Virus record (IMG/VR): IMGVR_UViG_3300037586_000826
Coordinates: 1 to 22,245 of that record
DNA length: 22,245 nucleotides
Strand: one strand, 5' to 3'
Source: a virus
Position numbers and translations under genes: made by a program. Below, piece after piece: positions 6,411-22,245 of the stretch. The notes under the pieces were generated by a model. It saw only the letters and a program-made list of their open reading frames with translations, was not told the origin of the DNA and searched no databases. Positions within the stretch are counted from its first letter, which is position 1. Every line of letters starts with the position of its first letter.

Positions 6411-9296
6411 ATGGTTGCACCAAAAGGTCTGGCAGGTCTTGCTCAATGGAGACAGGCGGTAACAGATGCAAAATTTGGAGAACGTCCTAGCCTAGAAGAG
6501 GTTGGTTCTCGCGCTGCGGATTTACAAGCAATTCTTGGTAGCACGGACTACAGCAAGCAACTTCAGCAAGCCCAAGATGCCGCCAAGCTACAAGCGGCTC
6601 TTTCGCTGGCGGCTCGTGGTTTTGCGTCAATGGGGGCGACTCCTAAAAGGGGTGAATCTCCTTTTGCAACAGTAGGGCGCGAACTTCTGGCTCCTGTTGG
6701 TGCCGACCTGATCCCCGTTGCTACGAAACTGATGGAAAGGAAGGTTGCAATAGATGCAGCCAAGCAGGCCGAAGACCGTCAAGTAAAGCTGGCTGCTTAT
6801 ACACAGGCCGCTGCCGGAAAGAAGGACCAGGACACTGTTGCGCTGGAACTTTGGAAACTTGGGCAAAAAACCGATAAGCTTCTTTCAGGCCATTTTGTTC
6901 TTTATAAGACAGATGACAAGGGACTGCCCACAACCCCTGTTTTAGATAAAAGCGGTTCTATAACGCAGGGACGACAACAGGGAAAGACCCCCGTCTTTAC
7001 TAATCTGCGGGATCAATCGTCTTTTTCTCCTGGCAACAAGCAGATGATGGTAAAATCCACCGACCATTTTAAGGGCGTTGGTGGAAGTAAAGGCAAGGCT
7101 GCAAACGTAGGTTATCTGCAAAATGACACTACCGACGAAATAATACACATGGCAAGACAGGGTCCAGGACAACCTGGATTTAACTCTTTAACCGGAAACA
7201 CTATTAACGACCCAGAGAATTGGACGTTTCTTGGAGCCTCCATCCCTAAAAGTACTGACCCAAAGGTTGCCAACAACTTTGTTCTGGTAGACAAGGATAG
7301 AATCGGACAGAGAGACGCCAAGGGAAGGCTTATCCAGCTTCGGCAACAAGGCGGACAATGGATAAAGTTAGCAGGAGTGGGCGGCGGGAGTGTGTTTGAT
7401 ATTCCACAAGATAATGAAGCCATGCCTGCCAGCAATTATTTTGCAAAACACGCTAAAGATTCTAAGCCTAGTGTTTCGGACGCGGGATTGGCACAAGAAT
7501 ACATTCAAGACCCTAAATACCCTAACGATCCGTCAAAATTAATTCTTGGTCCGGTGGTTGAGACAAAAGTTGTCTCTAAAAATGGAGCACTAACTCAAGT
7601 TCGCGCTGACAACAACGCAGCAATTAAAATAGGATCCACAAAAGGCTCGTACAAAATGTACTTCAAGCCTTTTGCGCCTACAGATCCGAAAGGTGTGGAT
7701 AGCGCGGACGCCAAAGCCAACTTTGAAGGCTTCCTGAACAGGTTTCCTGCAATTCAAGAAGCGGGAGCACTGGCTAACACTTCTATTAAGTTTGACCCGT
7801 TTCGACACAAAGCAGGCCAACAACCGTTTACCTATCTTAATGGTACGCCTCTCTCTGACGATGATGGAAAACGTATTCTCCGTATGATTGAAACCGATTA
7901 CTTTAACTTATACGACAAAGGCTTCAAAGCAGGGCAGGATCCAGTAGATATAAATCAGCGGGCGGTAACTAATTTTCTTAAACGGTCTTTGCATTCATAT
8001 GGGTTGAAACCTCCTGTTCTTGCACCAGGAGCGCAGCGGCCTCCTTCCCAACTTAAAAGCAAGCAGGCTCAACTTACGAGGTACATGACGGCTCCGACAG
8101 GTTTTAATACGCAACCCGTAGCCGCCGAAACTCTTGATAACATGCCTGTTCCAAACATAGCTAATTATAAAAACGGCATTGGGCGGTTGAAGGTTTTTCA
8201 AGAGCTTGGGGTTCCTTTTGGTGCGGATACCACGTCTCCTGCTCCTTTATCTCCAAATCTGCCTTCGCAACAATTAGGAGAAGCTTTAAACAATCGTTCA
8301 GCGGAGATTGCCCGTTTATCCGATGACCCCGATCCCATTCAAACACGTGTAGATGCGGAAGCTCTGTCAAAAGGGACCTCCCTCGCAGCAACCCTAACTT
8401 CTCAAGCCAACACTCCGGAAAAAAGAGATGCAGCAGTAGCGAAAGCTCTAGAAAAGGTGCGAGAAAATAGAGCTACCATTCAGGCCAAACCAGGAAACAA
8501 AGTGGCGGCGAAAGAACTGGGGGCGGCTCTCGCCGCGTATAGGAACATTTCAAGAATGCGGCTCGCGCTGAGTCGGAGTGGGGTTCCCGGATTTTTTACA
8601 GGACCTATTGAGGTGGGTGCAAGAAAGTATGTTGGTTTAGAAATAGGGGCGTGGTTCCGAACACCGGAGGGACAAAGGTTCGCAAATGAGTTTATAGCAA
8701 CCCTCCCGGTTATGGGTGAAATCGTATCCAGACAATTGTTAAGGGGAGCAGGTGAAGGCGCTAAGATGTCTGATAAAGATCTTAAAGGGATGAAAGGGGT
8801 GCTCCCTAAAGCAGGACAAAACTTTGAGTACGAAGTTGATAAAATAAATGCTTTGGACAGGTATCTAAAGGCTGGTATTCAGAGCATGCTGGAAGGCATT
8901 GGGGACTTCGCGCCGTCAAAAACTCTTCTTACTCAGGCCGCAACTCTTGGGTTTGATTTAAAAGAAATCAAAGGAAAAAACAATTACTATGATCCTTTTT
9001 TAAAGGATAGCCGATATAAAGTTTCAAAGCAGGCTGTTCCTTCTTATTCAAAGGAGAATCAGACACAACTTAGAGACAAGGGAGTTCTTGATTTTGTTTC
9101 AAAGTCGGTTCCTGGTAAGCCTATTCATTATGAACTTATGGTTATAGATGTGAATGGGCAACCCATCTGGGATGTCGCAAATAATAAGTGGACAACAACA
9201 ATTGTAAACGAGGCCGGATTGAAAAACCCCAATAACCGCGATTTAGTTAGGTTTAATACCGATTGGTTGAAGAGAGAGCATAAGCTGGACCGATAA
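6411..9296 (+). CDS. large probable internal virion / ejection protein (961 residues)
   Basis: The N-terminal 150 residues are mostly helical and Ala/Gln-rich (SKQLQQAQDAAKLQAALSLA). A long mixed region follows, then a C-terminal helical domain from about 660 with SRMRLALSRSGVPGFFTGPI and a segment around LLRGAGEGAKMSDKDLKGMK. That C-terminal pattern recurs in large marine phage virion proteins. I see no lytic transglycosylase or protease motif. Its length and place before the even larger 1524-residue protein parallel the T7 order gp15-gp16 (747 and 1318 residues), so a role in the ejected core is likely but inferred. TAGGAG at the end of the previous gene, about 7 bases before the ATG, is the ribosome-binding site. 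The next gene starts 1 base after the stop. Confidence 0.6.
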   Translation: MVAPKGLAGLAQWRQAVTDAKFGERPSLEEVGSRAADLQAILGSTDYSKQLQQAQDAAKLQAALSLAARGFASMGATPKRGESPFATVGRELLAPVGADLIPVATKLMERKVAIDAAKQAEDRQVKLAAYTQAAAGKKDQDTVALELWKLGQKTDKLLSGHFVLYKTDDKGLPTTPVLDKSGSITQGRQQGKTPVFTNLRDQSSFSPGNKQMMVKSTDHFKGVGGSKGKAANVGYLQNDTTDEIIHMARQGPGQPGFNSLTGNTINDPENWTFLGASIPKSTDPKVANNFVLVDKDRIGQRDAKGRLIQLRQQGGQWIKLAGVGGGSVFDIPQDNEAMPASNYFAKHAKDSKPSVSDAGLAQEYIQDPKYPNDPSKLILGPVVETKVVSKNGALTQVRADNNAAIKIGSTKGSYKMYFKPFAPTDPKGVDSADAKANFEGFLNRFPAIQEAGALANTSIKFDPFRHKAGQQPFTYLNGTPLSDDDGKRILRMIETDYFNLYDKGFKAGQDPVDINQRAVTNFLKRSLHSYGLKPPVLAPGAQRPPSQLKSKQAQLTRYMTAPTGFNTQPVAAETLDNMPVPNIANYKNGIGRLKVFQELGVPFGADTTSPAPLSPNLPSQQLGEALNNRSAEIARLSDDPDPIQTRVDAEALSKGTSLAATLTSQANTPEKRDAAVAKALEKVRENRATIQAKPGNKVAAKELGAALAAYRNISRMRLALSRSGVPGFFTGPIEVGARKYVGLEIGAWFRTPEGQRFANEFIATLPVMGEIVSRQLLRGAGEGAKMSDKDLKGMKGVLPKAGQNFEYEVDKINALDRYLKAGIQSMLEGIGDFAPSKTLLTQAATLGFDLKEIKGKNNYYDPFLKDSRYKVSKQAVPSYSKENQTQLRDKGVLDFVSKSVPGKPIHYELMVIDVNGQPIWDVANNKWTTTIVNEAGLKNPNNRDLVRFNTDWLKREHKLDR

Positions 9297-13872: not shown

Positions 13873-14318
13873 AGCTTTCGGACCATTTTTATCTAAGCGA
13901 GCTAACCAAGTCCAGTACGGCAGAACGACAGGGCATTACCAACGAACCCGACGAAGAGCAAATACAAAACCTTACCCTTGTCTGCGACAAAATCCTGGAG
14001 CCCGTCCGCAATCAGTACGGCATACCGTTCATCCCCAACAGCGGCTTCCGCTGCCTGGAGCTAAACCGCGCTATCGGTTCTTCGGACAAGTCGCAACACA
14101 CCACGGGAGAAGCCGTAGACTTTGAAGTCCCCGGAATTTCCAACAAGGAAGTGGCTCTCTGGGTAAAAGAGAACTGTGAGTATGACCAGCTTATCCTGGA
14201 GTTTTACAAGGAAGGCCAACCCGCCAGTGGCTGGGTCCATTGCAGTTACACTATAAATGAGGATCTAAGAAAGACGGCCCGTGTCTTCGACGGCAGTAGC
14301 TGGACGGACCTAGCTTAA
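13869..14318 (+). CDS. endolysin, M15-type zinc peptidase (Peptidase_M15_3-like)
   Basis: This 149-residue protein matches small phage M15 peptidases that cut peptidoglycan stem peptides to release progeny. The zinc-binding pattern is clear: SQHTTGEAVDFE gives His77 and Asp84, and GWVHCSY gives His124. NSGFRCLELNRAIG (57-70) is the conserved substrate-side segment, and the N-terminal LSDHFYLSELTKSSTA is also typical. There is no signal peptide, so export probably needs a holin; the small membrane protein at 102-266 is a candidate. The start overlaps the previous stop as ATGA, coupling it to late virion genes. The 3' end overlaps the minus-strand helicase by 9 bases. Confidence 0.9.
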   Translation: MKLSDHFYLSELTKSSTAERQGITNEPDEEQIQNLTLVCDKILEPVRNQYGIPFIPNSGFRCLELNRAIGSSDKSQHTTGEAVDFEVPGISNKEVALWVKENCEYDQLILEFYKEGQPASGWVHCSYTINEDLRKTARVFDGSSWTDLA

Positions 14319-15752
14319 CCAAGCCCGCACGTCTTCCCCCAATATCTGATCCGCTATCTTTATCTTGCCGCGCAACGCGCTGACAATCTTCTCGTCAATC
14401 GTCTTCGGGGAAATCAAGTCTATATAAGTGACCTTGTTGGTCTGCCCTATGCGGTGGGCGCGGTCCTCTGACTGAAGCCGAAGCTCCAAGTCATAGCTGT
14501 TTGAATAGTAGATAACCGTGGTGGCGGCTGTAAGCGTCAGCCCAAACCCTCCGGTGCGGGGATGCCCCACGATGAAACGTAATTCCGATTGTCGATCCTG
14601 GAAAGATTCCACGATCTGTTGACGCTCAGAATCAGGTGTTTCACCGTGGAGCGGTGAGACCGATAGTACGCTAAATCGGTCTCGCAGGGCCTCAGTGATC
14701 GAACGAATGTCCATGGACCATGTCGCCCAGATGATCGCCTTACCCTGTATCTCGTCGCAAATGTCGAGCAAACTCGACAGGCGGTTTGATTTCACTTCAT
14801 GTATAGTACCGTCATCGTCTGTTAGGTGACCACAGCAAATTTGTTGCAGCCGCATAATCTGTGTCAAAACATTTTGTGTGGTGGCTAACTCACCACTGCC
14901 CAATCGCGCCAGTGCGAGGTGCTTCATTTGCGTGTAGGCAGACGTTTGTTCCTTGGTCAATTCCACCTCGCGTTTTACATACACCTTGTCTGGTAGATCC
15001 AGGCAGTCTTCTTTCCGCACCCGGTAGGAGTGCTCTTGCAGTTTTTCTGTAAGCTCGTCCAGCCTGCGAAACCCGACAATGTGGTTAAACGAATGTGCGC
15101 CCATGGTCCGTCGCTGCACGACAGCATAGCGGCCTTGGAAAGCGTAGTAGCTTTTGAAACCCAGTATGCGTGGATTTAAAAAGTCCATTTGACTGTACAG
15201 GTCCATGGGGGAGCGTGTAACCGGAGAGCCCGTCAGGATGCGCCGCATAACACACTGCTCGCCTATCTTACAAAGGGCCTTGGTGCGTTTGGCTTTTCTG
15301 TTTTTGATAGTTGTGGATTCATCGACGGTCATAAACACGTCAAAATTCTTTACAAAATACTCTGCTACGTCCACGCCTTTTTTGCTGCTGAAAGCTTCTA
15401 CGTTCATCAGCAAAAACTTCAACGTCTTGGGATCTTTTTTGGAAAGCTCCCGAAGCTCGTCTCGTTTTGTTTTGGTGAGGCTGGGTTTCCAGATGACCAC
15501 TTGACGGGCTATCCGCTCCGGCAAATGCGTTTCTATTTCGTTTGCGAGGTTGGCTACCACGGCCTTGGGTGCTACCATAAGGGCGAAGTCAATTTTACCC
15601 TTTTCAAAATTATATCCAGTGGTGTCGATATCCACCTTCGATTTGCCCGTTCCCATATCCATTAACAGCGCATAGTTGTCCTTGTCGGCGCTCGCGTCGA
15701 AGGCTTCCTTCTGGTGCGCGTAGGGTTGGGTCTTAAAAATAAATTCCGACAT
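14310..15752 (-). CDS. SNF2-like superfamily 2 helicase/ATPase
   Basis: This 480-residue protein carries the whole two-lobe SF2 motor. It has PYAHQKEAF with Gln14 (Q motif), DMGTGKS at 32-38 (Walker A), VDES at 143-146 (Walker B), LTGSP at 173-177 (motif III), GGFGLTLTAA at 401-410 (motif V) and QSEDRAHRIGQ at 427-437 (motif VI, SNF2 style). Such short SNF2 proteins are common in phage replication modules, where they may remodel protein-DNA complexes or drive branch migration. It is the only minus-strand gene here. It converges on the endolysin with no intergenic space and diverges from the replication operon across a 99-base gap. An A/G-rich AAGAGAAA lies about 10 bases before the start. Confidence 0.9.
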   Translation of the reverse strand: MSEFIFKTQPYAHQKEAFDASADKDNYALLMDMGTGKSKVDIDTTGYNFEKGKIDFALMVAPKAVVANLANEIETHLPERIARQVVIWKPSLTKTKRDELRELSKKDPKTLKFLLMNVEAFSSKKGVDVAEYFVKNFDVFMTVDESTTIKNRKAKRTKALCKIGEQCVMRRILTGSPVTRSPMDLYSQMDFLNPRILGFKSYYAFQGRYAVVQRRTMGAHSFNHIVGFRRLDELTEKLQEHSYRVRKEDCLDLPDKVYVKREVELTKEQTSAYTQMKHLALARLGSGELATTQNVLTQIMRLQQICCGHLTDDDGTIHEVKSNRLSSLLDICDEIQGKAIIWATWSMDIRSITEALRDRFSVLSVSPLHGETPDSERQQIVESFQDRQSELRFIVGHPRTGGFGLTLTAATTVIYYSNSYDLELRLQSEDRAHRIGQTNKVTYIDLISPKTIDEKIVSALRGKIKIADQILGEDVRAWLS

Positions 15753-15795: not shown

Positions 15796-15802
15796 GGATG
15801 TT

Positions 15803-15821
15803 GATGGTTAAGTCAACCATC
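15803..15821. promoter_or_regulatory. inverted repeat, likely operator
   Basis: GATGGTT, five bases AAGTC, then AACCATC form a perfect 7-base inverted repeat. It begins one base after the predicted transcription start of the replication operon, a position where a bound repressor would block the polymerase. The Cro/C1-type protein encoded at 18800-19060 is a candidate binder; this is inference. As RNA it could also be a weak 5' leader hairpin. Confidence 0.5.
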
Positions 15822-15851
15822 GATTCATTAAACAAGAAAAGAGGAACCACG

Positions 15852-16427
15852 ATGAACGATCTTTTATCAGAGATGGCTTCCGATAGCGGAAGCTCCCCCG
15901 ACAAAATAGACCAGCTAGATGACGGCCAACTTGACGGCGTGTCTAGGCTGGCAAATGAAGCGGCCACGTTGGAGCAAAAGCTCGCTGAACACGAGCGGGC
16001 CATGAAAGATACAAAGGCCGCACTTCATAAAATCACGGACGAGCAGCTTCCAGAAGCTCTGGAAGAAATGGGCTTGCAGAAATTCACCCTGACGGATGGG
16101 TCAGAGATTTCGGTCAAGCCTATCTACTCCGCGTCCATTTCAAAGGACCGCCGCGAAGAAGCGTTCCAGTGGCTGCGCGACCATGAGTTTGGTGACCTCG
16201 TAAAGAACAACGTCACCGTGACCTTTGGACGCGGCGAAGACGAAGCTGCGGAAGAGTTTATGAACCTGTGCGGTTCACAAGGATACGCTCCCGACCAGTT
16301 GGAAAAGGTTGAGCCCATGACGTTGAAGGCTTGGCTCCGGGAACGTGTAGAAGCGGGTGACGCCGTCCCGCTGGATTTATTCGGCGCTTTCATAAGTCAA
16401 CGAGCAACCATTAAGAGGAGTAAATAA
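15852..16427 (+). CDS. conserved phage replication-module protein, function unknown
   Basis: This encodes about 191 residues. The N-terminus is acidic, followed by a coiled coil (about 33-62, ANEAATLEQKLAEHERAMKD). A compact domain with EEMGLQKFTLTDGSEISVKP, SKDRREEAFQWLRDHEFGDL, VTVTFGRGEDE and a C-terminal DLFGAFISQRATIK follows. I recognise this protein as a recurrent neighbour of the DNA-binding protein gene in T7-like and marine phages, but its activity is not known to me. ATG 15852 is chosen because AAGAGGAA ends 5 bases before it and it lies downstream of the predicted promoter start. An in-frame ATG at 15798 would precede the transcription start. It is the first gene of the operon, 2 bases from the next. 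Confidence 0.65.
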   Translation: MNDLLSEMASDSGSSPDKIDQLDDGQLDGVSRLANEAATLEQKLAEHERAMKDTKAALHKITDEQLPEALEEMGLQKFTLTDGSEISVKPIYSASISKDRREEAFQWLRDHEFGDLVKNNVTVTFGRGEDEAAEEFMNLCGSQGYAPDQLEKVEPMTLKAWLRERVEAGDAVPLDLFGAFISQRATIKRSK

Positions 16428-16429
16428 TC

Positions 16430-17209
16430 ATGGCTAAAGCCGTAGCGAAAAGGAAGGAGACTGCGCTCTCCACGGAAGTCACGGATCTGTTTGCAGCGGA
16501 TGCCGGAATTGGTGTCAACGATCTTGGTTCTGAAGATCTTGCCATCCCCTTCATAAAAATCTTGCAAAAGATGTCCGATCAACTGGATGAGTTGGATGGT
16601 GCCAAGGCTGGGGACATTTTCAACAGCGTGACCAGAGAGGTCATCAAGGGCAAAGACGGCATTTCTGTCATTCCTTGCGCCTACCGCTTGGAGTGGATTG
16701 AGTGGGAGCCTCGTGGCACCGGAACCGGAGCCCCCTACGCAATCTACCAGACGGGCGATTCTCTTCCGGAAACAGAGCGCAGTGAAGACAACAAGGACAT
16801 GGTTGTCGATGGTGGAGGGCGTTATCTTGAGCGCACTGCACAGCATTATGTTCTGGTTGTTGATGCGGATGGCGTAGCACAACAGGCGTTGCTCCCCATG
16901 AAAGCAACCCAGTTCAAGAAGTCGAAGCAGTGGAACTCTGCCATCAAGTCCATCAAAATGAAGGACGCTACTGGCAACCTTTTCACACCGCCTCGCTTCA
17001 GCCACATTTGGCATCTGTCCACGGCCAGTGAGGAAAACAAAAGCGGTTCGTGGCACGGGTGGCAGATAACTAAAGATGCTGTCATCGAAGATCCAAACCT
17101 CTATGCGGAAGCCCGTCTTCTAGCCCAATCTATCCAGGCAGGTGATGTCAAAGTGCAGCATGTGCGCGAGGATGACGGCTCTTCTTCTGACGAAAACACG
17201 CCGTTCTAA
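16430..17209 (+). CDS. probable single-stranded DNA-binding protein with SSB-like acidic tail
   Basis: This 259-residue protein resembles a phage family near replication genes. Features are DLAIPFIKILQKMSDQLDEL (37-56), GDIFNSVTRE (61-70), a beta-rich core with GISVIPCAYRLEWIEWEPRG, and LLPMKATQFKKSKQWNSAIK (155-174). The last 13 residues, EDDGSSSDENTPF, copy the style of bacterial SSB tails, which end in acidic residues plus Pro-Phe and recruit partner proteins. That tail and the position before primase, helicase and polymerase genes support ssDNA binding, analogous in role to T7 gp2.5. An OB fold cannot be proved by eye. A strong site, AAGAGGAG at 16413-16420, lies 9 bases before the ATG. 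A GC-rich hairpin follows the gene. Confidence 0.65.
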   Translation: MAKAVAKRKETALSTEVTDLFAADAGIGVNDLGSEDLAIPFIKILQKMSDQLDELDGAKAGDIFNSVTREVIKGKDGISVIPCAYRLEWIEWEPRGTGTGAPYAIYQTGDSLPETERSEDNKDMVVDGGGRYLERTAQHYVLVVDADGVAQQALLPMKATQFKKSKQWNSAIKSIKMKDATGNLFTPPRFSHIWHLSTASEENKSGSWHGWQITKDAVIEDPNLYAEARLLAQSIQAGDVKVQHVREDDGSSSDENTPF

Positions 17210-17218
17210 TAGGACTAG

Positions 17219-17244
17219 GGGGGAGGCTCGCCCTCCCCCGTTTT
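17219..17244 (+). terminator. terminator- or attenuator-like hairpin between SSB-like and primase genes
   Basis: GGGGGAGG at 17219-17226 pairs with CCTCCCCC at 17232-17239 around a 5-base loop. A G and four T residues follow at 17241-17244. This is a stable 8-base-pair stem with a short U tract, close to an intrinsic terminator. It sits only 4 bases before the primase start codon, so it may reduce expression of downstream genes relative to the abundant DNA-binding protein. The short U tract suggests partial termination. Confidence 0.65.
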
Positions 17245-17247
17245 CCC

Positions 17248-18789
17248 ATGACGAATACGGTTGACAGATTTGCACGGCTATTCCGTGGCTTGAATAAAGC
17301 GTATGGCGCAGTGGACCTGACCACTAAGGACGCCAACGGTAAGCAGAAGGGCAATTACAAAATTGTCCGCGAACCACGGACCAAGGCCACTTATGAATCC
17401 CACCTGAAGGGTGAGGTCAGCATTGGCGTTGTTCCGATCAACGAAGACAATGTATGCGTCTGGGGTGCCATCGACATAGACCAATACCCCTTGGACCATG
17501 CAGAAATAATCAAGAACATCATCCAACAAAAGCTCCCCTTGATCGTCTGCCGCAGTAAATCCGGTGGCGCACATTTATTCTTATTTTTTAAAGACTTTGT
17601 AGACGCCGAAAAGGTGCAGTTGAAACTGAAAGAACTTGCCAGCGAACTGGGCTATGCAGCCAACACTGAGATTTTCCCCAAGCAGATCAAGCTTCTGGTT
17701 GACCGTGGCGATACCGGAAACTTCCTGAACCTCCCCTACTTCAAACAGGATGGAGGGTTGCGCTATGCATTCAACCCGGATGGCAGCGCCGCCACTCTTG
17801 AAGAGTTCCTGGACATGGCCGAAGCCATTGCCATTACCCAGGAAGAACTTGACGCGCTCCTGTCCAAGAAAGAACCCAAAATAGACGAGCGCCTCAAGGA
17901 CGGCCCTCCTTGCTTACAGGCTCTTCTGCGACAGGGCTTCCCGGAAGGCACCCGCAACAACGGCCTCTTTAACGTGGGCGTATACCTACGCAAGTCGAGC
18001 CCCGACGATTGGGAAAAGAAGATCCTGGAGTACAACCAGCAAGTCTTTAATCCACCGCTTGATCTTAAAGAAGTCAACGTGGTAGCCGACCAAGTCAAAA
18101 AGAAGGACTACCAGTACAAGTGCGCCGACCAACCCATCTGCAATTTCTGCAACAAGGACTTATGCCGCAGCCGCAAGCATGGCGTGGGGGGAGGGACGAA
18201 CACTCCAACCGTAGCCAACCTCCGTAAGTATGACAGCGAACCGCCGCTATGGTTCCTCGACGTGAACGGTTCTCCGGTTGAACTGGATACCGAAGCCTTA
18301 CAGAAGCAGCCGCGCTTTCAAATCCTATGCATGGAGCAAATCAATTTCATGCCGCGCACCATGGCGAAGCAAGCTTGGGAAGCGGGGATGAACAACCTCC
18401 TCAGTCAAATGGTGCAAACAGAAGGAGCGGTTATTTCCACGCCAGATGATACCAGCTTACGCGGCCAGTTCTATGACCTCCTTGAGGAGTTCTCGACGCA
18501 CATGCAGACGGCACTGGATAAAGAAGAGATCCTTCTGCGCCGCCCGTGGACGGATGAAGAGGAAGGCCGCACCTATTTCCGGCTCAAGGATTTTGAGGCG
18601 TTTCTGAAACGCAACAAGTTCTTTGAATACAGATCAAACAAGATTGCCCAGCGCCTACGCGACATGGATGGCCGCGCCGAACAGTTCCGCATCCAAGGGC
18701 GCACCGTTCGTTGCTGGTCAATACCAGCGTTCGCCAAGATTGAAGAAGACTTTAGTTCAAAATTTGAGGATGAGGACGTACCGTTCTAA
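17248..18789 (+). CDS. archaeo-eukaryotic-type (AEP) DNA primase, TOTE-like, with SSB-like tail
   Basis: This 513-residue protein makes primers for the phage replisome. The AEP catalytic core is visible: AIDIDQY with Asp76 and Asp78 (metal binding), CRSKSGGAHLFLFF with Ser105 and His109 (nucleotide-binding sxH), and TEIFPKQ (140-146) as in AEP-TOTE primases. A helical PriCT-like part follows (RNNGLFNVGVYLRK, 236-249). A Cys cluster then comes at 292, 298, 301 and 306 (CADQPICNFCNKDLC), likely binding zinc or an iron-sulphur cluster. The C-terminus ends FEDEDVPF, an SSB-like acidic tip. The start follows family pattern (VDRFARLFRGLNKAYG near the N-terminus), but no usable Shine-Dalgarno precedes it; the only GGAGG lies in the upstream hairpin. 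Confidence 0.85.
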   Translation: MTNTVDRFARLFRGLNKAYGAVDLTTKDANGKQKGNYKIVREPRTKATYESHLKGEVSIGVVPINEDNVCVWGAIDIDQYPLDHAEIIKNIIQQKLPLIVCRSKSGGAHLFLFFKDFVDAEKVQLKLKELASELGYAANTEIFPKQIKLLVDRGDTGNFLNLPYFKQDGGLRYAFNPDGSAATLEEFLDMAEAIAITQEELDALLSKKEPKIDERLKDGPPCLQALLRQGFPEGTRNNGLFNVGVYLRKSSPDDWEKKILEYNQQVFNPPLDLKEVNVVADQVKKKDYQYKCADQPICNFCNKDLCRSRKHGVGGGTNTPTVANLRKYDSEPPLWFLDVNGSPVELDTEALQKQPRFQILCMEQINFMPRTMAKQAWEAGMNNLLSQMVQTEGAVISTPDDTSLRGQFYDLLEEFSTHMQTALDKEEILLRRPWTDEEEGRTYFRLKDFEAFLKRNKFFEYRSNKIAQRLRDMDGRAEQFRIQGRTVRCWSIPAFAKIEEDFSSKFEDEDVPF

Positions 18790-18799: not shown

Positions 18800-19060
18800 A
18801 TGCACGGTGACATCGTACCCATACATTGGCAAATCCTACTGCGCGAGATACGACAGGAGGCCGGTCTAAGCATGGTGGCATTAGCCAAGAAAGCCAACAT
18901 GCCGCAACGCACAATTGCCGAATACGAAAATGTCAAAGCTCCGCGCCACCTGTCTATATATAAAGTAGAGAAAATCCTTAACACGTTGGGCTATGAGGTG
19001 GATTTTTTCCTCAAGTCAGACGGCCCACGGGTCATACAAAACCGCCCGTCGCATGTTTAG
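18800..19060 (+). CDS. small Cro/C1 (XRE)-type helix-turn-helix regulator
   Basis: This encodes 86 residues. Residues 11-71 form an HTH_3-like five-helix domain: ILLREIRQEAGLSMVALAKK, then ANMPQRTIAEYEN as the second and recognition helices, and HLSIYKVEKILNTLGYEVDF at the end. It should bind a palindromic DNA site as a dimer. The inverted repeat at 15803-15821 at the operon promoter is a possible target, which would give negative feedback. It lies within the replication operon rather than beside an integrase, so a lysogeny role is not implied. An excellent ribosome-binding site ends 4 bases upstream. The 3' end overlaps the helicase start by 8 bases. Confidence 0.8.
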   Translation: MHGDIVPIHWQILLREIRQEAGLSMVALAKKANMPQRTIAEYENVKAPRHLSIYKVEKILNTLGYEVDFFLKSDGPRVIQNRPSHV

Positions 19061-20573
19061 GTATTTTGGTCCTCCCGGTACGGGAAAGACCACTACTTTG
19101 CTCAACCAAGTGGATGAACTCCTGGTTGGTGGAATGCCGCCAACCAGCATTGGCTACTTTGCATTTACCCGGAAGGCGGCGCACGAGGCCCGTGACCGCG
19201 CCGTCAACCGCTTTGGGCTGGACCCGGAAAACGACTTCACCTATTTCCGAACCCTGCACAGCCTAGCCTTTCTACTTCTGGGCTTGAACAACTCCGACAT
19301 CCTGTCCGATTCCAACCTCAAAGAATTTGGAAACACGGTAGGCGTTGACCTGTCTTCTACAAACGAAAGCGTGGAAGACGACGGCTTCAGCATTTTGCGC
19401 TCCAACCATCCCATCATGCGCTGCATAGACATAGCACGGAACACGCTCCAAGGGCCTGAGTACGCATACAACTTTTGCAATCTTCAAATGCCGCTCTACG
19501 AGTTTGAACACCTGTTTAAAGAGTACCAGAGGTTTAAATTATCTCAGGGTTTAAAAGATTTTACCGATATGATGGTAGACTTGTCGGCCAGTGCGGGGCA
19601 TATTCCATATTTCCAAGTAGTTTTCCTAGATGAGGCCCAGGATTTGACCCCGTTGCAGTGGCAAGTTGCCAACCAATTAGATGAGCGCAGTGACCGGATG
19701 TATGTTGCTGGCGACGACGACCAAGGCATCTACAAATGGGCCGGGGCCGACATTGATCATTTTATTGGTCTCTCTGGTGGGTCAGAAGTCCTGGAGCAAT
19801 CCTACCGCATTCCCCGCTCCGTTCACCGCGTTGCCAATTCTGTGGCGTCCCGTATCCGCAACCGTCAAAAGAAGCACTGGAAGCCGCGCACCGAAGAAGG
19901 CTCTGTCACACGCATTTATGATCCGCAAGGCTTTGACTTTGGAGACGAGAACTGGCTGGTCATGGCTCAAGCCAATTACATGCTCGACGCCGTGGCCGCA
20001 GAGATGCGCTCCACGGGACAATTCTTTGAGCGGTTCAACAAGCCTTCTCTCAGCAAGAAGGTGCGTTCTGCCATCAGTTCCTGGAATCACCTCCAACTGG
20101 ACGGGGGACATGAGGTGTCCCTGAAGGATGCACAGAACCTGTACCGTTTTATTTCCAGCGGCGACGGCAAGCTGATGCGTGGTGCCAAGAAAATGTTGAG
20201 TGGCGCAAACGATCAGGATCTGTTCACGTTGGGCATCTTGCGCGAGCACTTTGGTTTAGAGATTCCTGACGTACCTTGGGACAAGGCGCTTGACCGCATC
20301 CGTGATGAGGACCGGGCTTATGCGACGGCTCTCCTCAATCGGGGTATCAACATATTCCAAAAACCGAATGTGAGATTGTCCACCATTCACGGAGCCAAGG
20401 GCGGCGAGGCCGACAACGTCCTCCTGTTCACGGACCTGTCCGGAAAAGCTCTGGAAGACATGGAGCGCAATCCCGACGACGCCCACCGCGTTTTATATGT
20501 GGGCATTACACGAACCAAGCAGAATTTAGTTTTAAAAATGCCAGAGGATTCACAGAGAGGGTGGGCAATATGA
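19053..20573 (+). CDS. UvrD/Rep-like superfamily 1 DNA helicase
   Basis: This encodes 506 residues with all SF1A motifs in order. They are GPPGTGKTT at 6-14 (Walker A), AFTRKAA at 37-43 (Ia), TLHS at 67-70, DEAQD at 193-197 (Walker B), GDDDQGIYKWAGA at 220-232 (III), QSYRIP at 249-254 (IV), STIHGAKGGEADNV at 443-456 (V) and VLYVGITR at 480-487 (VI). It unwinds duplex DNA with 3' to 5' polarity if it follows the family. It is shorter than bacterial UvrD (about 700 residues), as usual for phage versions. ATG 19053 gives the family-like start MFRYFGPPGTGK and overlaps the regulator stop. An upstream in-frame ATG would add 20 unrelated residues. The end overlaps the next gene as ATGA. Confidence 0.92.
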   Translation: MFRYFGPPGTGKTTTLLNQVDELLVGGMPPTSIGYFAFTRKAAHEARDRAVNRFGLDPENDFTYFRTLHSLAFLLLGLNNSDILSDSNLKEFGNTVGVDLSSTNESVEDDGFSILRSNHPIMRCIDIARNTLQGPEYAYNFCNLQMPLYEFEHLFKEYQRFKLSQGLKDFTDMMVDLSASAGHIPYFQVVFLDEAQDLTPLQWQVANQLDERSDRMYVAGDDDQGIYKWAGADIDHFIGLSGGSEVLEQSYRIPRSVHRVANSVASRIRNRQKKHWKPRTEEGSVTRIYDPQGFDFGDENWLVMAQANYMLDAVAAEMRSTGQFFERFNKPSLSKKVRSAISSWNHLQLDGGHEVSLKDAQNLYRFISSGDGKLMRGAKKMLSGANDQDLFTLGILREHFGLEIPDVPWDKALDRIRDEDRAYATALLNRGINIFQKPNVRLSTIHGAKGGEADNVLLFTDLSGKALEDMERNPDDAHRVLYVGITRTKQNLVLKMPEDSQRGWAI

Positions 20574-20941: not shown

Positions 20942-21185
20942 CCGCTCTGCTACCCACGGTAGTATGTGGGAAAACCACGAAAACATAGCGCGGTTGTGGA
21001 ACGGTTACTTATGGAACGTCGAAAAGATTTCTGCTTCCGACGTTGCGAATTTAATGGAACTTTTAAAGGTTGCCAGACGTAAACTGGGCTCGTTCAATCC
21101 GGACGATTACGTGGACGGCGCGGGGTACTCCGGTGTCAGCTACGAGTGCAGACTAGCGGAGTTGGAAGATGAAACAGAATCTTAA
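20892..21185 (+). CDS. DUF6378-like small phage protein
   Basis: This encodes 97 residues. GGDRSATHGSMWENHENIAR (15-34), then WNGYL, SASDVANLMELLKVARRKLG (47-66) and NPDDYVDGAGYSGVSYE (69-85) match the phage DUF6378 pattern. The conserved His and Asp residues (His22, His29, Asp71, Asp72, Asp75) in an all-helical protein suggest metal or nucleotide binding, perhaps a role in nucleotide metabolism; I cannot show it. AGAGGAAAGG lies about 8 bases before ATG 20892. Its first 50 bases overlap the previous gene in another frame, and its last 17 overlap the polymerase gene. Confidence 0.75.
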   Translation: MTAKTILEKAIKLVGGDRSATHGSMWENHENIARLWNGYLWNVEKISASDVANLMELLKVARRKLGSFNPDDYVDGAGYSGVSYECRLAELEDETES

Positions 21186-22245
21186 AAAACCCAAGTGGGG
21201 CGTCAAGACCGAATGGGTTCCGGTGGACGAGCTTCCTCCTACCCCCAGCGCCGTCAAGGAAATTGCAATAGACCTGGAGACCAAAGACCCACGGCTCAAG
21301 AGCCATGGTCCAGGCTGGCCCACGGGCAACGGCGACGTAGTAGGAATTGCTGTTTGTTATGAAGGGTTTAACGCCTACTTGCCTTTTGGGCATGAGGGCG
21401 GCGGCAACCTTGACCGCAAGATTGTCCTCAAGTGGTTTGAGAAAGAGATAGCCAAGCACCCTTCCGATAAGATCTTTTATAATGCCGCCTACGACGTAGG
21501 CTGGCTCCGGCGCATTGGCATCAAACCGCAGGGCCGCATCATCGACGCCATGCTGGCCGCACCTTTGTTGAATGAAAACAGGTTCAGCTATTCCCTCAAC
21601 GCCGTCGCTTACGACTACATGGGTGAGATGAAATCCGAAGCCGCACTAAGAGAAGCGGCGCAAGAATTTGGCGTAGATCCAAAGGGGGAACTGTACAAGC
21701 TTCCTGCCACCTTTGTTGGCGAGTACGCGGAGGCCGATGCACGGCTCACGCTCCAGTTGTGGCAGACGTTCAAGGCAGAGCTTGCAAAAGAAGACTTGTG
21801 GCAAGTGTTTGACCTGGAATCGGAAGTGCTTCCGCTTTGCATTGACATGACGTGGCGCGGGGTGCGGGTAGACCTGGATGAAGCCGAACGTCTCAAGCAG
21901 TCTCTTTTTGCTCACGTCAAAAAGATCCTCTCCGACATCAAAAAGCAAACCGACCTCGACATTGAGTTGTGGGCAGCGGCGTCTATTGCCAAGGTGTTCG
22001 ACCAACTGAAGATCCCCTACGGTAGAACCAAAACCGGGCTCCCTAGCTTTACCAAGAATTTCCTGGCCCAGCATGAGCATCCCATTGCCCAGCAAATTGC
22101 AGAAGCCAGAGAGTACGACAAGATTGGAAATACCTTCCTGTCGAGCATCTTCCGCTATGCAGAGAAGGACCGCATCCACGGCCATATAAACCAGCTACGG
22201 AGTGAGGGCGGCGGTACGGTATCCGGACGCATCTCCATGGCTTCC
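21169..22245 (+). CDS. polA-like: family A DNA polymerase, N-terminal part (cut by window end)
   Basis: The visible 359 residues run off the window edge. They contain a 3'-5' proofreading exonuclease: AIDLET with Asp35 and Glu37 (Exo I), NAAYDVGWL with Asn105 and Asp109 (Exo II), and YAEADARLT with Tyr186 and Asp190 (Exo III). After this, MTWRGVRVDLDEAERL begins the linker to the polymerase domain, and GTVSGRISMAS is the conserved approach to polymerase motif A. The catalytic motifs A, B and C lie beyond the window. This is the replicative polymerase, probably acting with the primase, helicases and DNA-binding protein encoded upstream. GGAAG just precedes ATG 21169, inside the preceding gene, so translation is probably coupled. 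Confidence 0.93.
   Translation, partial: MKQNLKKPKWGVKTEWVPVDELPPTPSAVKEIAIDLETKDPRLKSHGPGWPTGNGDVVGIAVCYEGFNAYLPFGHEGGGNLDRKIVLKWFEKEIAKHPSDKIFYNAAYDVGWLRRIGIKPQGRIIDAMLAAPLLNENRFSYSLNAVAYDYMGEMKSEAALREAAQEFGVDPKGELYKLPATFVGEYAEADARLTLQLWQTFKAELAKEDLWQVFDLESEVLPLCIDMTWRGVRVDLDEAERLKQSLFAHVKKILSDIKKQTDLDIELWAAASIAKVFDQLKIPYGRTKTGLPSFTKNFLAQHEHPIAQQIAEAREYDKIGNTFLSSIFRYAEKDRIHGHINQLRSEGGGTVSGRISMAS

Follow-up and report, generated by a model that had tools for sequence, protein, structure and literature searches.

In the replisome of bacteriophage T7, the single-stranded DNA-binding protein (SSB) gp2.5 and the primase gp4, which is fused to a helicase, carry acidic C-terminal tails with the same type of tip, DGDF in gp2.5 and DTDF in gp4. 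Both proteins dock on the polymerase gp5 with its thioredoxin, using the same region of the polymerase. The tail of gp4 docks on basic patches of gp5, which belongs to polymerase family A (PMC12593628, PMC8472574). Matching tips are also present in the T7-like controls CHF17 (GDF/PDF), RHEph01 (DIPF/TAPF), and P-SSP7 (DDF/TDF). Phages JSF34, CRP-4, and K1E were left out of this count because no SSB was recognizable by annotation in the stretch read. The cyanopodoviruses P-SCSP1i and P-SCSP2 have no DNA polymerase gene (PMC9860041). Their predicted SSBs have aromatic ends (EEF in P-SCSP1i, locus L626, and ADF in P-SCSP2, locus L631), and their gp4 proteins end in GEKL and VFGD, without the DF tip of the P-SSP7 type. 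The absence of the gp4 tip from phages lacking a polymerase may reflect a single loss, but fits a tip made for the polymerase.

The C-terminus of bacterial SSB (SSB-Ct, DDDIPF) is formed of acidic residues followed by a terminal Pro-Phe. The same arrangement, on a protein with a predicted OB fold, characterizes the clade of the virus studied here. However, bacterial SSBs belong to the family PF00436, of which the phage protein is not a member. Unlike in the bacterial system, the primase of the phage also bears the tip, and in several phage lineages the tip departs from that of the host.

The DNA analyzed is a 22,245-base virus record, referred to in its entirety as the window. It encodes a protein of the Pam3_Gp34 family (gp34 in the following) and an AEP primase, which, like gp2.5 and gp4 of T7, are an SSB-like protein and a primase of one phage with the same tip. 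In contrast to T7, the primase is not fused to a helicase, the place of gp2.5 is taken by an OB-like protein of the Pam3_Gp34 family, the tails are acidic in the clade of the window but not family-wide, and the identity of the tip varies widely and co-varies between the two proteins. Whereas T7 gp5 contains a thioredoxin-binding insertion, the polymerase match of phage DSL-LC04 in this phage group points against a large insertion, and docking on the polymerase is proposed by analogy. A previous interpretation of the window, the sequence-only reading, presented the shared tail as not known to be described for this primase family. This agrees with the open-access literature, in which no description of the tail in this family of AEP primases, of its link to Pam3_Gp34 proteins, or of a co-varying tip was found. 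However, the principle is known from T7, and it is the AEP primase, the Pam3_Gp34 protein, and the co-variation of the tip that are apparently new, as far as searches of the open-access literature show. The sequence evidence suggests that a single docking site serves two unrelated proteins of replication, which would extend the T7 principle of a shared SSB and primase tail to AEP primases and would give an SSB-like role to Pam3_Gp34, a large family of 'hypothetical' proteins. The phages are common in aquatic metagenomes, and their replisome is unstudied as far as literature searches show.

Pro-Phe tails of adjacent gp34 and primase

The gp34 of the window (259 aa) is encoded on the forward strand at positions 16430–17209 and has the C-terminus REDDGSSSDENTPF, with the last residues SSDENTPF. 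Its tail, EDDGSSSDENTPF, corresponds to positions 17168–17206. The primase (513 aa), which is formed of a PrimPol domain and a PriCT-like region, is encoded on the same strand at positions 17248–18789 and ends in SSKFEDEDVPF; the tail FEDEDVPF occupies positions 18763–18786. Both translations are as quoted in the sequence-only reading, which had described Pro-Phe tails on an adjacent DNA-binding protein and AEP primase. The conserved neighbors include a protein similar to Pam3 gp33 (positions 15798–16427, forward strand; PF23984, E 1.2e-33) and an SNF2-type helicase encoded on the opposite strand (positions 14310–15752; PF00176 and PF00271). A UvrD-like SF1 helicase (positions 19053–20573, forward strand; PF00580, E 7e-26) and a family A DNA polymerase (positions 21169–22245, forward strand; PF01612, PF00476, phrog_17), of which only the 5' part is present because the end of the window cuts it, are candidate docking partners. 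The window further contains an HTH protein and proteins with DUF7768 and DUF6378.

The primase belongs to the AEP-TOTE family (PF22548, E 3.3e-14; phrog_21866, E 3e-100), and its motif residues D76 and D78, which form the DxD, and H109 of the His motif downstream are invariant in 97 homologues. The match to PriCT-1 is borderline, with 20.9 bits against a curated cut-off of 21.1. The structure model of the primase matches the CAPP PrimPol from Marinitoga (7nqf) with a Foldseek E of 2.2e-11, and the corresponding profile match has an E of 3.1e-14. The phage primase has the AEP catalytic domain in common with the CAPP and AEP-TOTE primases, but the genomic context differs.

The gp34 sequence is matched at residues 23–241 by the Pam3_Gp34 profile (PF23977, E 3.4e-62; phrog_2402). 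About 500 records of phages in GenBank contain members of this family. The AlphaFold model of gp34 (pLDDT 86) is mostly beta with helices. Chains containing OB folds head the list of its VIA-align matches (phiC31 recombination directionality factor, Z 7.9; RB69 gp32, 6.3; BRCA2 OB, 6.3; T4 gp32, 5.8; RPA, 4.2; further RPA and SSB chains follow), all with Z below 8, a range in which the tool warns of a merely common arrangement. The resemblance of the predicted core to the gp32 fold of T4 and RB69 is therefore modest. Foldseek places RPA and SSB at E of about 0.01 or worse, with the best E at 9e-3, and the sequence profile of gp34 has no match among solved structures. Because the structural scores are modest, the OB fold and the likeness to SSB are predictions. 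The canonical bacterial SSB profile PF00436 has no match in gp34. It has none in 17 related phages, which supports the SSB-like reading, and gp34 probably acts as the ssDNA-binding protein of the phage. It may not be the only SSB in every phage, since Vibrio phage J3 (L622, positions 7914–9265) encodes a gp34 relative ending in FPDEM and a separate, adjacent SSB ending in DDDIPF. The best structural match, the phiC31 recombination directionality factor (9teh), raises the possibility of a family link between gp34 and such factors.

Eight scans of viral contigs, one scan of genome contigs, and annotated GenBank regions yielded 392 unique loci in which both proteins are complete, forming 85 clusters at 70% primase identity. 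The phage group with the gp34 and AEP primase pair is widespread, in both marine and freshwater environments. The 81 loci closest to the window, whose own record is counted in, have primase identities of approximately 77–100% and were chosen by patterns in the body of the primase, without use of the tail. A PF end is present in all 81 of these primases and in all 79 gp34 proteins found, but in only 34 of the 16,638 other ORFs of the surveyed loci, and the shared PF ends thus exceed chance.

In the clade of the window, residues -12 to -2 carry a mean net charge of -4.0 in the primase and -4.5 in gp34. In the primase family overall, however, the mean tail charge is -0.8, and 47% of the tails have a charge of at least 0. 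The last one or two residues form the conserved and shared part, and the acidity is largely specific to the clade of the window. The description of the tails as acidic therefore holds for this clade and not for the primase family overall. Close relatives without Pro-Phe, which would have spoken against the sequence-only reading, are absent (81/81 and 79/79), but among distant relatives Nanhaivirus, the HTVC023P group, and the cluster of locus L492 keep PF on gp34 and not on the primase.

gp34 and primase tips co-vary beyond phylogeny

Divergent loci carry matched tips of the types PF/PF, PY/PY, NY/NY, IV/IV, IM/IM, SF/SF, VF/VF, and EF/EF. The PY/PY pair is found in L378, L381, and L383, NY/NY in the L421 cluster and L540, IV/IV in the cluster of phage HTVC027P, and SF/SF in L506 and L551. 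Locus L171 has VF/VF within a PF cluster. A near-minimal pair is formed by L502, with IM/IM, and its more than 70% identical relatives L375, L508, and L513, with PF/PF. In phages Kokobel2 and Bhz9 (EF/EF), the tips match even though the genes are about 3 kb apart. Other loci have related but non-identical pairs: PFV/PFA (L084), PI/PV (L503), IL/LI (L539), and DF/EF (L177). The natural tip-swap variants PF, PY, NY, IV, IM, SF, VF, and EF could be used for testing the partner and the specificity of docking.

Exceptions are Nanhaivirus and the HTVC023P group, in which gp34 ends in PF and the primase has no tip, and the L492 cluster (L492, L494, L496–L500, and L521), in which the primases end in GGL, DMI, DLL, DMM, SDI, or SDL and gp34 constantly in APF. 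The primases of the L492 cluster can be described as carrying a different hydrophobic tip. In 023Pt-like phages, the primase ends in ENF or EDF and gp34 in TPY; the primases of the L083 cluster have an internal TPY or IPY right before the ENF or EDF end, and the corresponding gp34 ends in TPY. The gp34 proteins of phages without an AEP primase also have hydrophobic ends (PVF, EEF, EQF, PPF), and no tip common to gp34 and the few neighbors read was found in these phages.

The agreement of the tips was compared with expectation on a tree with 169 loci as representatives at 85%, for which the tails were cut off before alignment. In 2000 simulations, the gp34 tips evolved at their fitted rate and the primase tips stayed fixed. 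The last two residues are identical in 96 of the 169 loci, compared to 48.4±16.6 in the simulations (maximum 83). Identical tips other than PF occur 23 times against 2.9 simulated (maximum 14), and there are eight distinct types of shared tip against 2.1 (maximum 5). The results are similar on trees calculated from either gene alone. The effect is weaker when only the last residue is considered (111 vs 81±21, p 0.003). Among phylogenetically independent pairs of loci that differ in both tips, 12 are concordant, one is swapped, and six are ties (p=0.003); independent contrasts on the single-gene trees give ratios of 9:1 and 14:2. The gp34 and primase tips therefore co-vary beyond phylogeny.

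The same tip is encoded by different codons in the two genes, which argues against copied DNA. The primase gene encodes the SF end with AGT-TTT and the gp34 gene with TCT-TTT or TCT-TTC, and the two VF ends, including the stop codons, are GTG-TTC-TAA and GTA-TTT-TGA. The serine codons AGT and TCT, together with a codon identity of 52% within loci as compared to 44% between loci, led to the rejection of gene conversion or DNA sharing at the 3' ends as an explanation. The tips converge at the protein level. A search for a third neighboring protein with the tip of gp34 returned 37 matches among the other ORFs of the same loci against 32 expected, which is the level of chance. A recurrent third protein with a PF end (L007, L524, and L534; about 270 aa, ending in H[VA]HK..PF) has a transposase-type appearance in its sequence.

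Candidate docking partners of the shared tip

That two unrelated proteins switch one terminal dipeptide together suggests, as the simplest reading, a shared pocket on a phage protein. The docking pocket common to both tails, proposed in the sequence-only reading, gains support from the concerted changes of the tips, the different codons, and the lack of sharing with other neighbors. In the proposed mechanism, gp34, as the ssDNA-binding protein of the phage, and the AEP primase would bear an identical short C-terminal docking peptide, which would fit one pocket on a third, phage-encoded protein of the replisome. Since the pocket would hold one tip only, the SSB-like gp34 and the primase would bind in turn. 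This turn-taking would hand the SSB-coated template and the fresh primer to the same enzyme, in the manner of T7 gp2.5 and gp4 on gp5. The pocket, its location, and the turn-taking are putative. By analogy with T7, the most likely partner is the PolA-family polymerase of the phage, and the second choice is the UvrD-like helicase. We estimate the probability of alternating docking by gp34 and the primase at a single phage-encoded site, with PolA as the most likely partner, at roughly 60%.

The intergenic region between gp34 and the primase (positions 17210–17247, forward strand) contains a GC-rich hairpin followed by a U-run, which resembles a terminator or attenuator (-22.4 kcal/mol, z -2.6). 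G-rich and C-rich arms are present at the matching place in several relatives. The hairpin would allow an excess of gp34 over the primase and could set the SSB-to-primase ratio; such an excess would be expected if the SSB competes with a primase of lower abundance.

Both PolA and the UvrD-like helicase are present in all 16 phages with AEP primase that were checked, and their presence therefore cannot separate the two candidates. Co-variation of alignment columns with the tips, evaluated by mutual information relative to simulated tips and by deviation in the lineages with switched tips, gave signals confounded with clade in every protein, so that it names no partner. Residue W63 of PolA (numbering of the L082 alignment) and residues R458 and S360 of the helicase (numbering of the L001 stop-to-stop ORF) track the PF and non-PF tips of gp34 and are candidate contacts, likewise confounded with clade. 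Nanhaivirus and the HTVC023P group have PolA but lack the tip of the primase, indicating that this tip is dispensable in some lineages. The DNA_pol_A match of phage DSL-LC04 is nearly gap-free, with about 388 aa for 380 positions, which makes a T7-like thioredoxin-binding insertion unlikely. More tentatively, each lineage might use a private two-residue C-terminal address code on the SSB-like protein and the AEP primase, read by one co-evolving socket of the replisome. A change of the code would then take three matched changes, and the code would separate the phage replisome from the traffic of host SSB and from co-infecting phages.

It is somewhat unlikely, although conceivable, that the pocket is on the UvrD-like helicase instead of the polymerase, and that the SSB and primase dock there. 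The SSB of phage T4, gp32, docks on the helicase Dda in this way, and the gp32-Dda complex (8gme) is among the fold matches of gp34. The helicase gene is positioned directly 3' of the primase gene in most loci read, its family occurs in 16/16 phages, and in relatives of Yuavirus gp34 is directly upstream of a Dda-like helicase. Helicase residues R458 and S360 are kept in approximately 88–90% of the PF/PF loci and as a rule differ in PY and several further lineages. However, R458 is also kept in the IM/IM locus and in two of the four NY/NY loci, and columns of other proteins, for example PolA W63, score as high as those of the helicase.

A pocket that belongs to one of the two tip-bearing proteins, gp34 or the primase, appears unlikely. 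The tip of the primase could plug a site for the gp34 tip, resulting in autoinhibition, or both tips could compete with ssDNA for the OB cleft of gp34. A precedent is DnaG of E. coli, a known binder of the SSB tip (PMC5872125). The pLDDT is raised at the terminal residues of both models: residues 247–254 of gp34 are below 50, but residues 255–259 are not, and no residue of the primase is below 50. However, conserved tails may gain pLDDT without docking. Columns of gp34 and the primase top the co-variation scan, but this is no surprise, since both proteins had served to calculate the tree.

The tips of the PF lineages resemble the bacterial SSB-Ct (DDDIPF) and might mimic it, so that host SSB-binding proteins would be recruited, as the sequence-only reading had suggested. 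This is improbable. All four SSBs read from Pelagibacterales genomes with such phage loci end in DDEIPF, yet the phages of such genomes or hosts include PY/PY and IV/IV types: the phage locus in one of these genomes, L378, has KEEAPY/ETKQPY. HTVC027P (IV/IV) and HTVC023P (gp34 ending in SVPF) have different tips, even though both are from Pelagibacter HTCC1062. Recruitment of host SSB partners was thus rejected as a general explanation, since the host tips stay DDEIPF while those of the phages change. An artefact of shared ancestry, recombination of neighboring genes, or composition, to which the usual adjacency and co-inheritance of the genes and the inflation of the naive match count by large PF clades might point, is highly improbable in view of the tree simulations and independent contrasts, the different codons for the same tip, the lack of an effect in other neighboring ORFs, and the matches between the distant genes of Kokobel2 and Bhz9.

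In addition to the tips of gp34 and the primase, the UvrD-like helicases have ends of the form aromatic-x-[LIV] (FRL, YDL, YQI, WAI, and others) in most of the tip-bearing lineages, and a few end in NDK, as in HTVC023P, or in NEQ or EKK. The aromatic-x-[LIV] end is possibly a second docking motif, or simply the last strand of the helicase.
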